Assembly: GCA_001871015.1 (NCBI GenBank)
Contig: MNUO01000021.1
Coordinates: 1 to 7,539, forward strand
From: Candidatus Desantisbacteria bacterium CG1_02_38_46
GTDB taxonomy: Bacteria > Desantisbacteria > UBA1551 > UBA1559
DNA: 7,539 bases
Direction: 5' to 3'
The translations under genes were made by a program, and so were the position numbers. The notes under the pieces were generated by a model. It saw only the letters and a program-made list of their open reading frames with translations, ran no database searches and was not told where the DNA came from. Shown piece by piece: positions 1-7,539 of this stretch. Within the stretch, counting starts at the first letter, position 1. The number at the start of each line of letters is the position of its first letter.

Positions 1-218
1 AGACTATTGTCTGCTCCTTAATGAAGAGTATCGACCACTGACACGCTGGTTATTTCGGGGCTCAATTCCTTCACTTGCGTTATAGCTCGATATTTCCCGC
101 TTCCCGCACCACTTTATTTGTTACCAAATAAAGTGTGAGATTAAGTGTTAGGCTGGTGGCTAACCTTTACCTAAGTCGGACTTGCACCAACAAGAACTAA
201 TACACTTTCTCGGCACAC
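1..218 (-). ncRNA. Group II intron, 5' part (domain I), truncated by window edge
   Basis: This stretch looks like the 5' end of a self-splicing group II intron, a ribozyme retroelement that usually encodes a reverse transcriptase/maturase. Read on the minus strand it starts GTGTGCC at 218, fitting the GUGYG consensus. It continues with a hairpin around GGTGCAAGTCC (191-175), an 11-bp perfect stem closed by a GUAA tetraloop (135-110), and the segment ATAACGCAAGTGAAGG (about 92-77). An ACGCAAGU string and a later GAAA-containing segment also occur in domain I of Ll.LtrB, as I recall it. A small hairpin with loop UUCAUUAAG (28-14) could carry EBS1. No open reading frame of useful length crosses it. 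Catalytic domain V, the maturase ORF and the 3' splice site would lie beyond position 1, so completeness and activity cannot be judged. The call is by pattern memory, without a covariance-model search. Confidence 0.8.
110..135 (-). other. Perfect 11-bp stem with GUAA tetraloop inside the intron
   Basis: The two arms at 110-120 and 125-135 are exact reverse complements. The loop at 121-124 reads GUAA on the minus strand, a GNRA tetraloop, but UUAC on the plus strand, which supports minus-strand RNA as the functional molecule. GNRA-capped stems in group II domain I dock into receptors elsewhere in the ribozyme. Assignment to a named tertiary contact is not possible from this fragment. Confidence 0.75.
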
Positions 219-237
219 TCATTTTATTTCCCTCCTT
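219..237 (-). promoter_or_regulatory. Strong RBS and start codon of the intron-interrupted gene (5' exon)
   Basis: On the minus strand AAGGAGGG (237-230) lies seven bases before an ATG (222-220), an optimal Shine-Dalgarno arrangement. Only ATG plus one A (219) precede the intron-like GTGTG at 218. Reading on without splicing gives a 20-codon peptide ending at a TAG (162-160), too short and too intron-like to be a real gene. The simplest reading is that this is the 5' exon of a gene whose body lies past the left edge, beyond the intron. What that gene encodes cannot be seen. Confidence 0.6.
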
Positions 238-258
238 TTGAAGTGTTCTTTTACATAC

Positions 259-287
259 ATTATAGCACAAATTTTTACATTTGTCAA
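259..287 (-). promoter_or_regulatory. Consensus sigma-70 promoter facing left
   Basis: TTGACA (287-282) and TATAAT (264-259) are separated by exactly 17 bp, so both hexamers and the spacing match the housekeeping sigma-70 consensus. Transcription would begin near 252 and run into the strong RBS/ATG at 237-220 and then the intron, leaving a short leader of about 30 nt. The promoter starts ten bases after the stop codon of the preceding gene, and no intrinsic terminator is visible between them, so read-through from the upstream operon is also possible. The spacer holds a 6-bp dyad (284-279 with 272-267) that could be an operator. Confidence 0.8.
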
Positions 288-296
288 GTTTTCGCA

Positions 297-1112
297 TTAA
301 AGACCCAAAATTTTTTTTAAATACTGGATACTTTTTTCTGCAATTACTTCTGGCCCTGGACTGAAATCAAAAACTTCAACTGAAATATATTTATCGTAGC
401 CTATTTTTTCTAAAGCTTCTTTAATCGGTTCATATTTAACTTCGCCAAATCCAGGACCTGATAAATTAGGGTCATTTGCATGGAAATGAGCCAGATAACC
501 TTCAGAGGATTTTATAATTTCTGTAATTTCTTTCTCTTCCCCGCACATTGCTTTAACATCTAAGTGGAGTTTGAAATTGGGATGATTTATTTCTTTAATT
601 ATCTTCAGCGCCTCTTCTGCAGTATTTATAAAATTGGTTTCTTTTTTGGTCAGTGGTTCTAAAGCAATAACAACATTTCTTTCTTTTGCCAGAGGTAAAG
701 CTTTAAGAAAACATTCTTTTGCATAATTATAAGTCTGCTCGTAAGTAGAGGAAGAAGGAATATCTCTTTGTTTTGGAGAGCCAAAAATCATCAGCCTGCC
801 ATTTAAATCAGCACAGAAATTAACTAATTCCTTCAGATAATCAATTGTTCTTTCTCTGACTGTTTTATTTTGGGAACTGATACTTAAACCCTCGGGAGAT
901 GCCAGTAACCAATGCAATCCGATAATCTCTAAATTATTCTGCACCGCCAAATCTTTAATTTCCTTTCTTTTATCTGCTGAAATCTCTTTTACAGATTTAG
1001 CAAAAGTAAAAGGAGCAATCTCTATTCCATCATAACCAAGCGAAGAAACATAACTGACAGTTTTTTCCCACTCCCACTCCTTAAAAATTTCATTGCATAT
1101 CCCAAATTTCAC
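297..1112 (-). CDS. Sugar isomerase/epimerase-like TIM-barrel protein (D-tagatose 3-epimerase/AP-endonuclease-2 fold)
   Basis: A 271-residue protein of the xylose-isomerase-like TIM-barrel superfamily, whose members isomerise or epimerise sugars using one divalent metal. With the GTG start at 1112, the predicted metal ligands are Glu152 (ALEPL), Asp185 (HLDVKAM), His211 (HFHAND) and Glu246 (VEVFD). These are the residue numbers I recall for Pseudomonas D-tagatose 3-epimerase. Glu158 is also kept, but the positions of its substrate-contacting His188 and Arg217 are Ala and Leu, so the substrate probably differs. The GTG follows GGAGGG (1121-1116). A longer reading from a GTG at 1154 would overlap the previous gene and lacks such a site. 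It is the last gene of the operon, 13 nt after the previous stop, and looks cytoplasmic. Family is confident. The exact reaction (ketose 3-epimerase, hydroxypyruvate isomerase or other) is open. Confidence 0.88.
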   Translation of the reverse strand: MKFGICNEIFKEWEWEKTVSYVSSLGYDGIEIAPFTFAKSVKEISADKRKEIKDLAVQNNLEIIGLHWLLASPEGLSISSQNKTVRERTIDYLKELVNFCADLNGRLMIFGSPKQRDIPSSSTYEQTYNYAKECFLKALPLAKERNVVIALEPLTKKETNFINTAEEALKIIKEINHPNFKLHLDVKAMCGEEKEITEIIKSSEGYLAHFHANDPNLSGPGFGEVKYEPIKEALEKIGYDKYISVEVFDFSPGPEVIAEKSIQYLKKILGL

Positions 1113-1125
1113 TTTCCCTCCAGTT

Positions 1126-1884
1126 TTATTCGTTATATGCTTTAAATAAAGCACGATAATAACAAAGCAATCTTTCTGGCTGTGGATTTGCTGGTATCTC
1201 TGCTAAGCAAAAACCTTCATACCTAACACCTTTAAGAAGAGAAAAAAGTTTTCTCCATGGATATTCATTCCATAGTTCATTTATATGCACCAGACCGATT
1301 TTATCCTTTAAAAGTTCAAAATTCTTATCAATTGAACCAGATTCATCCAAATCTGTCATATTAGAATTCCAACAGACATAAAGGTTAGGATGATTGGCTA
1401 TATCCACCATTTTTTTGATATAAGGAGGATGCCAGGTTCCTGTCCCATGCACCTCCAGCCTGATTTTTATGCCAAAATCAGCACCAGATGAACTAACCTC
1501 TTTTAAAGAAAGTCCAATCTGTTCAATTGTTTTCTCTTTAGAAACTCCTTCTGGAAAAGCGTTTGGCCTTACTTTTACTCCTTCAGCTCCAACATCACTT
1601 GCTAATTTGATATATTCTTTACTACCTTCAATATTTTTTCTCAATTCTTCTTTATCAGGACTATGGTATTCAAAAACTGAACCCAGACCAACAAGTTTGA
1701 TTGGTGAATCTGCAAATTTTTTTCTTATTTCTTTCCTTTCCTCCTTAGATAAGTTTACTTCAACTTTATGTGCATGAGTGGTTCTCAATTCTACTCCCTC
1801 ATAACCAAATTCACTGCACTTTTTAATTATTGTTTCTACATCCCAATCCTTAGCAATTTCATAAGTCACTATACCAAGTTTCAT
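1126..1884 (-). CDS. Second sugar isomerase/epimerase-like TIM-barrel protein, divergent metal site
   Basis: A 252-residue cytoplasmic protein of the same TIM-barrel superfamily as its downstream neighbour but clearly not a recent copy. The N-terminal strand (MKLGIVTYEI) and the GYEGVELR motif (27-34) are typical. Candidate metal-site residues are Glu144 (IRLEVHG), His200 (LVHINE) and Glu229 (LAEIP). The position expected to be Asp is Asn173 in VCWNSN, so metal binding or chemistry may differ from classical epimerases. The ATG at 1884 follows GGGGAGGT with four bases between, and it overlaps the stop of the propeller gene as ATGA (1884-1881), implying translational coupling. The two neighbouring isomerase-like genes probably catalyse successive or related steps on one sugar. 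The substrate is unknown, and an inositol (IolE-like) or hydroxypyruvate-isomerase-like role cannot be excluded. Confidence 0.85.
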   Translation of the reverse strand: MKLGIVTYEIAKDWDVETIIKKCSEFGYEGVELRTTHAHKVEVNLSKEERKEIRKKFADSPIKLVGLGSVFEYHSPDKEELRKNIEGSKEYIKLASDVGAEGVKVRPNAFPEGVSKEKTIEQIGLSLKEVSSSGADFGIKIRLEVHGTGTWHPPYIKKMVDIANHPNLYVCWNSNMTDLDESGSIDKNFELLKDKIGLVHINELWNEYPWRKLFSLLKGVRYEGFCLAEIPANPQPERLLCYYRALFKAYNE

Positions 1885-4266: not shown

Positions 4267-4297
4267 AAAAAAATCAAGTTTTCAAATTTTTGAACCT
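4267..4297 (-). terminator. Weak candidate intrinsic terminator after the SprA-like gene
   Basis: Immediately after the stop codon, TTCAA (4294-4290) can pair with TTGAA (4285-4281), extended through a two-base bulge by G4295-C4278. Two bases later comes a run of seven T (4273-4267) on the minus strand. The stem is short and AT-rich, so termination is likely partial at best. It nevertheless sits at the only gap in the window before the sugar cassette. Confidence 0.3.
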
Positions 4298-7200
4298 CAG
4301 AAGCGAATGACACCGCGCAGGGCAATGCTGAGCGCAATATAATCCTTCGTGTAATCCTCCATATTGTTGAAATATGTGAATGAAAATGTAAAAGTTGTAA
4401 GAAGATTTTCTGCAACATTATATGTAAGTCCAAGAGAAGAGTTAACCCTGTTTGTACTTTCTGTTTTATTATCTTCCTTAACTCTTTTGATCTCTGCGTC
4501 TGTGGTATTTGTCAAATCAAGTTTATTGGTAAGGACAATTGGCTTCAGGAATGGAATTTTAATGGAGATTGGAAATCTAAAATAATAATCTGTTTTAACA
4601 GAAGGCGAAAGTATAGAGGTATTCTTTAAATATGCTCCCCTCTCCTCAGTATCGAAAGTATAATTCAGGGAATAGTACTGATTTAAATCAGGGTTCCACC
4701 TGACCTGCCAGGAACAGGAAGGAGAGCTTGAAGTAGCTTTGGATACATTTACTGTCTCTGATATTCTATGGTTATAATTACCCATAAAATAGGATGATTG
4801 TGAAATTTTCTTGAAAATCGGGAAAGCCTGATTTAAGTCGAGGCGAGCACTTCCACCATAGGCAAGGCTATTAACCTGATTAAACGAACCCTGGTTCTGA
4901 CTTTCATCCTGCCCCCAGGAAAAGTTGGCACCTGTACTCAGCGGGTCCCAGAAATAAAGATTTGAACTGAGACTATAAGACTTTTTGTTGGAAGCTGTTT
5001 TTCGATTATCTGAAATCGGTGAAATAGATTCTTTCAGGTCTTGAAAAACCTGCCAAATATCGTTGGTGATATTCCAGAAATCTATACTCTGGCTCAGATT
5101 ATCGTATGCGGTGTTAATTCCTATATTGAATGAATTATAGAAATTGAAAAATTTTAGAGCATTGTACCAACTCTCAGGCGTTACATTTGCACTAACACCT
5201 ATGGATGCACTGGCACTTACATTTTTAAAAAGATCTGAAACAAAAAAGTAATTTTCATTAACGCTTTCGTCAAAAGTTATACTCGGGCTTACCCCTTTTA
5301 TCAAAGATGTACCGCAGCCAACTCGGACGTTCTGGTTGCTTGAAATGGGTCGGAAAACATTTGATAGAGGAGTTTTTGTCTGCGGCTGTTCCTGGCTGGT
5401 CTGCCTTATGCTGTAAGAAGGAGTGAAAGTAAGGTTTGGAATTGGATTGGAAGTAAAATCTAAACCAAAATCATGCGTTTGATTTTGCAAGTATGCCACT
5501 GTTTCTGAATTTTGTGCAGGCCGCACTTCTCTTTTGTCGCCGCTTATGGAATAGCGCACATTAGAAGAAAGACTGTGGCCAGTTGGAATCAAATAAAATA
5601 ATTTCCTGGGAAAAACATAGCTGTAGCTGGTGGAACCTGAATAAGGCTGATATATTTCATACTGCTCAGCACCCTTAAAATTACTATACAGCTCACTTTT
5701 TCCATAGGAACCTGAGAGGTTAGGAATATACGAGCGTGTGAATTGCAAATTATAATTTTGAGATTCCTGGCTTCTCTCACCCAATCTGCTCTGCGGAACA
5801 TCCTGGGCTGATGAGGGTTCAAGATAGGTTCTCGTCTTTGACCAGGACCCGCTTAATGGTAAGGATATGCCCCACTGGGCAGGCATAAATCTGGAAACTA
5901 TGAGCGTTCCATTTACCCCCTGGTAGTCATAATCCTCTGCGGGTGTTGCAACGCCAACTGTTTCAAATTTATGGGTTATCTGTTTTCGATTGTAACCAAT
6001 GTTTAAAAGTCCATTTGCAATATCAGTGCTCAATGCTACCTTCCAGGCATACCCCTCTTTAACTTCAACTTCATCTAAATGCAGTTCATCTAACCAGATT
6101 TCCCTTTTTGCACCTCCTGTGCTCGTATCAGAAACACCAATTGTAATCTGCTTTATATTATAAAGTATTTCCCTGTCCTCAACACCTGCAGGTGAAAATT
6201 TAGTCAGCTCATTCAAAGACCTGATATCTATAGATTTAAGAGTCCACTTCTGCTCCATACTTGCATCCACTTTCATCTGATATTCATAACATGTTGTGTC
6301 ATCCATACCAAATCTTAAAACCAGTGTGCAGCCAGAACTATTTGCTGTAGGATAAATCCAGAATTTTAGTTTGCGATAGTCAGTAAAATTCATTGCGCTT
6401 GTCCATTTCTGTGTTGTTGAACCCTGCCCTGGAGTATTAAAATAATAGATCAATGCCATTGATTGCTCTTTTGGCCAGAGGGATTTGGAAAGTCCACCAT
6501 ACACTGTTTCAAAACTTGGATACAATTCTTCAAAATAATCATTTATCCCATCGCCGTCTTTGTCGTCATCACTTTTTCCTATATAATCCCTGGGAGAATT
6601 ATAATACCCGGCATGGTCTTTCGTATTTCTTGCCTCTACAGTAAATGTGTTGCCTCCTGTTGTGTCGCTCATCGATATATTAGCCCATTTATTTCCCACT
6701 ATGGAAATTGCATCCATCTGTATTGTCCCATTCTTTGTCACTCCTGTAGGATTCTTTAACCATAGGCGCATATGTTTAACCATAGTCCAATCAGTATCTC
6801 CTTTAACCTGGGCCGTAAAAGGAATTCGGTACAGTTTCCAATTGCCAGATGTTGCCACAATGCAGGCTGCATCCAACCCATCGAAAGTGTGTATCTTTTG
6901 ATTGACGGCATTTAATTGCCCGTCACCATCTAAATCTTGGGTATCAAGTCTTTTGTTACCAGCACCTATTTTAACTATACTTCCATCATATTTGATGAAG
7001 TTCCAGCCTACATCTTCCCCTAAATTCAGCTTTCCATCTCCATTTATGTCTTCAGTTTTGGGTTGTCCTGCTTTCCAGGCACCTGCATCACCTGGAAATC
7101 CTCCCCTTCCATCAGAATCCTCGCTGATAATTCCTAAGTCTATGAAAAATTTTATATCTGAAGGAGGAGATTTTACCCAGAATTCCAGTGCATTGTACTG

Positions 7201-7539
7201 GGAATAGTCCTGTGCATACCTGGAAATTGGGTAGCAGATTGAAATCCAACCGCTATCAGAAATTGTGTAATTAATTAAAAGGGAACGGGCACTTGTAGAA
7301 CTTGGGTCATGTCCCTCATCTTTATTTTCTAAAGTGTAATTTCCCCTTGCAGACTGAGTTTCTTCATCGGAGGCGTCTGGAATCTTGGGAGCACTTGAAA
7401 TTCTCCAGGAATACATATCAACTGGCATATCAACAGATAATCTAATTCCCTCCATATCCTCAACCATTGCCTTGCCAAAAGTGTTTGGATTCTTCCAGCT
7501 ATACGCAGCTTCTCCTGCAAGACTCATCGTAACAGGAAT
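4297..7539 (-). CDS. sprA: SprA-like outer-membrane beta-barrel surface protein, C-terminal part (5' end beyond window)
   Basis: The frame stays open to the right edge with no ribosome site before the first internal ATG (7527), so this is the last 1081 codons of a larger protein. Counting from that Met, GEAAYSWKNPNTFGKAMVEDMEG (5-27) matches the GEVA-to-DDFEG region of SprA, the giant Bacteroidota barrel through which type IX-secreted proteins leave the cell. Two jelly-roll-like modules follow, around YNALEFWVKS (111-120) and YRKLKFWIYP (384-393), the second ending in IWLDELHLDEVEV. Asp-rich EF-hand-like loops lie at 160-172, 198-210 and 320-334. From about 495 to the end the sequence is alternating amphipathic strands with many aromatic residues, finishing LRGVIRF, and the final Phe suits insertion by the BAM complex. 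Family is confident. A type IX secretion role outside Bacteroidota is inferred. Confidence 0.82.
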   Translation of the reverse strand: MPVTMSLAGEAAYSWKNPNTFGKAMVEDMEGIRLSVDMPVDMYSWRISSAPKIPDASDEETQSARGNYTLENKDEGHDPSSTSARSLLINYTISDSGWISICYPISRYAQDYSQYNALEFWVKSPPSDIKFFIDLGIISEDSDGRGGFPGDAGAWKAGQPKTEDINGDGKLNLGEDVGWNFIKYDGSIVKIGAGNKRLDTQDLDGDGQLNAVNQKIHTFDGLDAACIVATSGNWKLYRIPFTAQVKGDTDWTMVKHMRLWLKNPTGVTKNGTIQMDAISIVGNKWANISMSDTTGGNTFTVEARNTKDHAGYYNSPRDYIGKSDDDKDGDGINDYFEELYPSFETVYGGLSKSLWPKEQSMALIYYFNTPGQGSTTQKWTSAMNFTDYRKLKFWIYPTANSSGCTLVLRFGMDDTTCYEYQMKVDASMEQKWTLKSIDIRSLNELTKFSPAGVEDREILYNIKQITIGVSDTSTGGAKREIWLDELHLDEVEVKEGYAWKVALSTDIANGLLNIGYNRKQITHKFETVGVATPAEDYDYQGVNGTLIVSRFMPAQWGISLPLSGSWSKTRTYLEPSSAQDVPQSRLGERSQESQNYNLQFTRSYIPNLSGSYGKSELYSNFKGAEQYEIYQPYSGSTSYSYVFPRKLFYLIPTGHSLSSNVRYSISGDKREVRPAQNSETVAYLQNQTHDFGLDFTSNPIPNLTFTPSYSIRQTSQEQPQTKTPLSNVFRPISSNQNVRVGCGTSLIKGVSPSITFDESVNENYFFVSDLFKNVSASASIGVSANVTPESWYNALKFFNFYNSFNIGINTAYDNLSQSIDFWNITNDIWQVFQDLKESISPISDNRKTASNKKSYSLSSNLYFWDPLSTGANFSWGQDESQNQGSFNQVNSLAYGGSARLDLNQAFPIFKKISQSSYFMGNYNHRISETVNVSKATSSSPSCSWQVRWNPDLNQYYSLNYTFDTEERGAYLKNTSILSPSVKTDYYFRFPISIKIPFLKPIVLTNKLDLTNTTDAEIKRVKEDNKTESTNRVNSSLGLTYNVAENLLTTFTFSFTYFNNMEDYTKDYIALSIALRGVIRF

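Follow-up and report, generated by a model that had tools for sequence, protein, structure and literature searches.

As described in PMC4465626, the Azotobacter groEL intron is a group II intron that lies at a stop codon, in a subset (Michel and colleagues 2007, cited there) with a large insertion at the 5' extremity of the intron. The intron described here likewise belongs to group II and interrupts essential genes at a translation signal codon, but the codon is a start rather than a stop, and GTGYG abuts the exon without the large insertion by which that text defines the subset. C.te.I1 of Clostridium tetani is similar in that the downstream ORF starts inside domain V/VI motifs and the N-termini differ between spliced and unspliced RNA. 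It differs in occurring at one locus, in having no IEP, in the alternative splicing of surface-layer exons and in an upstream exon that is a whole gene, with no start-codon targeting (PMC3919590). The TeI3/TeI4 twintrons of Thermosynechococcus elongatus also sit at an ORF start, between two possible AUGs, where the protein could begin at the first AUG if spliced and at the second if not. However, the second of these AUGs is part of the host ORF rather than of the intron, and there is one conserved homing site (PMC2882425). Splicing likewise selects the ribosome-binding site of a gene in the c-di-GMP allosteric ribozyme of Clostridioides difficile, but this is a group I ribozyme at a single domesticated riboswitch locus and not a mobile start-codon family (PMC3984707). 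An RT match with no endonuclease match, as found here, resembles RmInt1-like IEPs without an endonuclease domain as treated in PMC8914252. No account of start-codon-targeting introns with their own initiation module turned up in the searchable literature, which missed key older work. The main prior-art risk is a 2007 work by Michel and colleagues, because it reportedly may also discuss initiation codons.

An interrupted gene at a contig edge

The window, which is the whole stretch of 7,539 nucleotides analysed here, is the entire contig C2 of a 1.73 Mb assembly in 133 contigs (G000), and the intron is cut off at the contig edge, continuing only on other contigs (Table 1).

Table 1. Features of the interrupted gene and its surroundings in the window.
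Feature	Position	Strand	Basis
Sigma-70-like promoter TTGACA-N17-TATAAT, host gene	259..287	minus	sequence
Shine-Dalgarno (SD) AAAAGGAGGG, host gene, 5' exon	about 230..239	minus	sequence
ATGA, host start codon and first base of codon 2, end of 5' exon	219..222	minus	57 independent 5' exons
5' portion of group II intron (domain I), truncated at contig end	1..218	minus	RF02005 and copies on C105, C122
EBS1, UUCAUU on the minus strand	20..25	minus	domain I alignment, 16 introns, two controls
Dead-end 20-codon reading from host ATG in unspliced RNA	160..222	minus	translation
Xylose isomerase-like TIM barrel gene, upstream of the interrupted gene, same strand	297..1154	minus	Pfam PF01261

The initial annotation had proposed that a group II intron immediately follows a start codon on the same strand, with promoter, SD, ATG, A and GTGTGCC in that order, and the minus strand bears this out. 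The host ATG is at 222-220 and the A at 219, ATGA is the pairing target of EBS1, and GTGTGCCGAGAAAG, with the GTGTGCC 5' end, begins at 218 immediately after it. ATGA ends the exon, which holds only initiation signals plus one base of codon 2 as had been claimed, and the translation agrees with the 20-codon dead-end peptide that would stop at 160. The Rfam model RF02005 (group II D1-D4) matches 184-1 with 65 bits and an E of 7e-17, broken off at the contig end. The first 222 bases of the window were found again, with zero mismatches, at the ends of C105 (after GAGAGGTGGGAAA-ATGA) and C122 (after CAGGAGGAAAGAG-ATGA). All three intron 5' ends in this genome stand after an SD and ATGA, and the 5' exons are otherwise different. 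Because the intron recurs 100% identical on two contigs with other 5' exons, we regard the boundary in the window as confirmed and not a chance likeness.

Six places in the genome have a domain V (RF00029): five contig ends (C33, C70, C76, C85 and C98), where the match is above cut-off, and the inside of an RT-bearing intron at C76:34751-36606. The five contig-end copies are nearly identical, that is one intron, and those that reach far enough hold the IEP C-terminus upstream of domain V, which supplies the domain V and part of the maturase that the initial annotation had asked for. All five 3' ends read GGAGG-TATAAAAG-ATG-TCT-ACT-CGA-C| and finish GGAGGTATAAAAG ATG TCT ACT CGA C|A, and the Rfam model stops at the same base. 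Each is followed by a long ORF that resumes the frame from ATGA, encoding M28-peptidase/FtsX-domain, OmpA-domain, M50 protease, MbnB/TglH/ChrH-family and DUF6807 proteins. Such identical introns in multiple copies suggest recent mobility. The full-length group II intron at C76:34751-36606, which encodes an RT of its own, was rejected as a copy of the window intron; it has a different 5' exon and lacks an SD-ATG of the TCTACTCGAC kind.

A comparison with an intron-free homologue was made for a sister copy (C105/C76). In G001, a genome of the same order, the orthologues of the genes at the C105 end and the C76 start adjoin with no intron between them, and this synteny joins the two contigs. From reading its sequence we take the gene at the C105 end to be an NAD synthase gene (nadE); C76 opens with the M50 (site-2) protease gene. 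The G001 protease starts at GGGGAGGTATT-GTG, 16 codons ahead of the HExxH motif, and the splice-restored start lies at an equal distance, so that the G001 start codon and the spliced start match exactly. We also used G001 to seek a 3' exon partner for the 5' exon in the window. The match to the isomerase gene of the window lies at a contig end, and the DUF6807 gene of C98 had no match in G001.

Every testable feature marks the element as a group II intron, with splicing and mobility predicted. It has GUGYG and AY ends, a domain V (in this genome and in whole relatives), a predicted bulged A at -7, where a branch A is expected (7-8 nt from the 3' splice site), and an anti-AUGA EBS1, with controls matching their own exons. 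The RT/maturase is present in a whole relative and as a C-terminal piece in the copies of this genome. The upstream terminator or attC-like stem of group IIC introns is absent, and the 5' exons consist of an SD and a start codon.

Elsewhere in the window, the promoter (287-259) holds the palindrome ACAAAT-N6-ATTTGT between -35 and -10. Similar promoter-like stretches occur at six further places in the genome, on C4, C15 (two), C35, C43 and C66 (L008-L013), and together these are possibly the operator of one regulon. A 1076-aa ORF at 4297-7527 has DxDxDG-like motifs in its first half when read by eye, and had no Pfam match.

Start codons as the insertion target

RF02005 proved too insensitive for locating 5' ends in other genomes, and the exon-blind pattern GTGYGCCRRGNAAAG was used instead. 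This pattern, whole introns and the copies in this genome gave 57 independent 5' exons, after leaving out eight in one repeat family and seven matches that were another Nitrospira intron or chance. All 57 end in NTG[A/G] (ATGA in 49, ATGG in five, GTGA in two and TTGA in one), and 60% have an SD core of at least 5 nt compared with 11% of shuffles. GTGYG stands directly after ATGA in all copies, as GTGYGCC in relatives and GTGTGCC in this genome, where the 3' end of the intron is CGAC. Insertion at a start codon is not an isolated event; this lineage regularly targets start codons. A second pairing (IBS2) that would fix upstream exon letters was considered and rejected: the base counts showed no fixed letters, just an SD-like G/A block from -15 to -11.

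When domain I of 16 introns was aligned, EBS1 was UUCAU (anti-AUGA) in nearly all start-codon introns. In the window, UCAU pairs with AUGA and the leading U with the first base of the 3' exon, A; this base is A in 95 of 107 3' exons and can pair with the U that precedes EBS1. L111 has UUCGU, not UUCAU, which is compatible with a G-U pair, as are the ATGG and GTGA exons. The two control relatives have EBS1 sequences ATTCGT, with the 5' exon ACGAAT, and GGGACA, with the 5' exon TGTCCC.

We also compared eight relatives picked by similarity, regardless of SD-ATG or exon. Four of these (L185, L186, L187 and L194) have both the ATGA site and the SD-ATG; the other four (L059, L063, L188 and L189) are inserted elsewhere and are without the SD-ATG. 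The IEP tree groups the start-codon introns with L063 as the sole exception, and the tree then needs two changes. The 3' end of L063 is ATATTATATCTACTCGAC, compared with SD..ATATTATGTCTACTCGAC in its clade, and retargeting was accompanied by loss of the start module.

Other introns and landing sites were seen in these searches. A Nitrospira MAG has a second group II intron (GTGCGCCAAGAAAAGCTTTTCAGG) whose 5' exons are not start codons (G290:C376 (L269), L230, L236, L242, L247 and L252), and one copy of this second type lies inside a start-codon intron as a twintron. In G295 (Deltaproteobacterium AUK176), many start-codon introns sit in one repeat family, after TTTATATGA| and before AAATAGC.. 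(L234, L240, L251, L271-L274, L278 and L279), with a mobile or repeated element as the landing site. Plasmids of Candidatus Megaera polyxenophila (L305 and L307) carry a more distant intron with the 5' exons AAAAATGA| and AAATTGG|. Its AGGA..ATG lies 33 nt upstream of the 3' end and does not share the phase of the exon; this intron may be an independent or a less strict start-codon variant.

The intron's own SD and start codon

The intron ATG is 13 nt from the splice site and the host ATGA is 4 nt long. Both lengths are 1 modulo 3 and therefore the host frame is kept, spliced or unspliced. The predicted spliced junction ATGA|A.. gives ATG AAA/AAC..., with the five N-termini MKKNIILCF, MKKILVFMF, MNILLSLVA, MKKRISLGL and MKRRIIVKA. 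The predicted unspliced reading from the intron ATG is MSTR(Q/H)... (for example MSTRQKN.. and MSTRHIL..), in the same frame as the host. The initial annotation had concluded that translation of the host gene must depend on splicing, and this is unsupported, given that the intron has an SD and an ATG of its own at its 3' end, in the host frame; the interpretation of the initial annotation as a whole is partly supported. The host gene is probably still translatable with or without splicing, through the intron SD and ATG. We infer both that the intron splices and that its start is used.

To follow the lineage we searched with a pattern made of the domain V end, SD, ATG and TYTACTCGAY. Start-codon intron 3' ends were found in at least 116 genomic stretches from many phyla, a sample that was chosen by the SD-ATG pattern itself and says nothing on how often the module is absent. 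One Nitrospira MAG holds at least 28 of the listed stretches, and other taxa among the listed matches include Deltaproteobacteria, Ignavibacteriales, Omnitrophota, Elusimicrobia, Spirochaetes, Chitinispirillales, Chloroflexi and WOR-3; viral contigs had no match to the lineage. Many other genomes hold whole introns with both junctions inside single contigs. The IEP of a whole relative matches TIGR04416 and RVT_1, that is, RT, with no endonuclease match. Among the matches listed, 107 distinct 3' exons were usable, and in 83 of them the host frame exceeded both other frames in length (p 9e-21). It reached at least 60 codons in 79 of the 107, compared with 5 and 6 in the other frames, leaving 28 with no host frame of that length. 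Hosts include GroES (groES), adenylate kinase (adk), IspH (ispH), HisRS (hisS), glutamine synthetase, PilT and FolC, and the GroES, Adk and IspH family models start where the predicted spliced protein starts.

At some loci (L078, L102, L141, L167/L057, L168 and L058) the intron is mostly lost. In remnants of the L078 type, SD-ATG-TCTACTCG, or a near copy, is kept directly 5' of an open frame, and the genes headed in this way include OprB, xylose-isomerase-like and UDPGP genes. These decayed copies are unable to splice and therefore the gene start is that of the intron, if the gene is expressed. A 5'-truncated start-codon intron is also present on the Caedibacter taeniospiralis plasmid pKAP298 (L301:2010-3925). 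It has the EBS1 TTCATTT and ends in SD-ATG-TCTACTCGAC, and the public record, which is complete, is not annotated as such.

In predicted folds of domain VI, the 3' strand AUGUCU-A-CUC pairs with GAGGGGCAU. All 39 folds leave the A at -7 bulged, and 37 have every base of the AUG paired. From these models the initiation codon appears to be built into the branch-site helix, and the folded RNA would hide the intron start. Although the domain VI loops have diverged until they share little else, the SD, the spacing and the ATG are retained. Masking of the SD by a domain VI hairpin was rejected as a general rule; it applied to one sub-clade only (23 of 39 folds above shuffles, not significant overall).

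A proposed mobile replacement for the start codon

We favour the idea, with a probability of about 0.83, that these mobile group II introns form a lineage that specialises in translation starts and brings a replacement initiation site with it. EBS1 (UCAU with a U before it) would pair with AUGA|A at the start codon, and reverse splicing would place the intron between ATGA and the remainder of codon 2. Domain VI would bring SD-spacer-AUG fused to the conserved 3' strand UCU ACU CGA C, which in unspliced RNA would be codons 2-4 plus one base. Spliced RNA would then give M-K... and unspliced RNA a new start at M-S-T-R-.... Paired in the domain VI stem beside the bulged branch A, the intron AUG would be masked in the folded ribozyme, and would be exposed in RNA that is unspliced, misfolded or made from a 5'-truncated copy. 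The target, the EBS1 match, the in-frame module, the spread and the decay series can be read from the sequences themselves. Insertion would probably be nearly harmless even in essential genes.

The most serious alternative, although we consider it unlikely, is that splicing is rare and that the retroelement parks in leaders and replaces the gene start, much as a transposon with its own ribosome-binding site would. Unspliced RNA of C.te.I1 makes up 75-95% of transcripts (PMC3919590), and truncated copies that are unable to splice still head genes, both of which fit this idea. Yet full copies have intact domains V and VI, the branch A, GUGYG/AC ends and the EBS1-IBS1 match, they maintain an exact splice frame that a leader-only element would not need, and reverse splicing requires a splicing-competent intron. 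It seems less likely still that targeting is real and splicing efficient and that the intron SD-ATG is unused for the host, having arisen as a side effect of domain VI structure or of the copying of target-like sequence. The base-pairing of the AUG in the predicted domain VI is consistent with a structural role of this kind, but the SD, spacing and ATG are conserved while the loops have diverged, the phase of the module always agrees with that of the exon, introns with targets other than start codons (L063, L188 and L189) lack the module, and in 5'-truncated remnants it survives as the sole start of the gene. We give almost no weight to insertion of the group IIC type, downstream of a terminator or other stem-loop with ATGA there by chance, or to a repeat assembly artefact. 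The three 5' ends in this genome do lie at contig ends, like collapsed repeats; however, whole introns with both junctions occur within single contigs in many other genomes, and the 5' exon ends in a start codon in 57 of 57 cases.

Group II introns are usually rare in bacterial housekeeping genes. A lineage specialised on start codons would explain how a mobile intron could multiply in such genes, where every gene has a site and the part that is broken is supplied. With slightly less confidence than in the lineage itself, we think it likely that these are selfish introns that cross phyla, with an anti-AUG EBS and their own in-frame SD and AUG making host translation independent of splicing, and that they multiply in essential genes and leave starts behind as copies decay. 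Annotation pipelines probably call the interrupted genes from MSTR... and may overlook the intron. Such an intron would be a natural targetron-like element directed at start codons, and intron-derived sequence would become the translation start of host genes.
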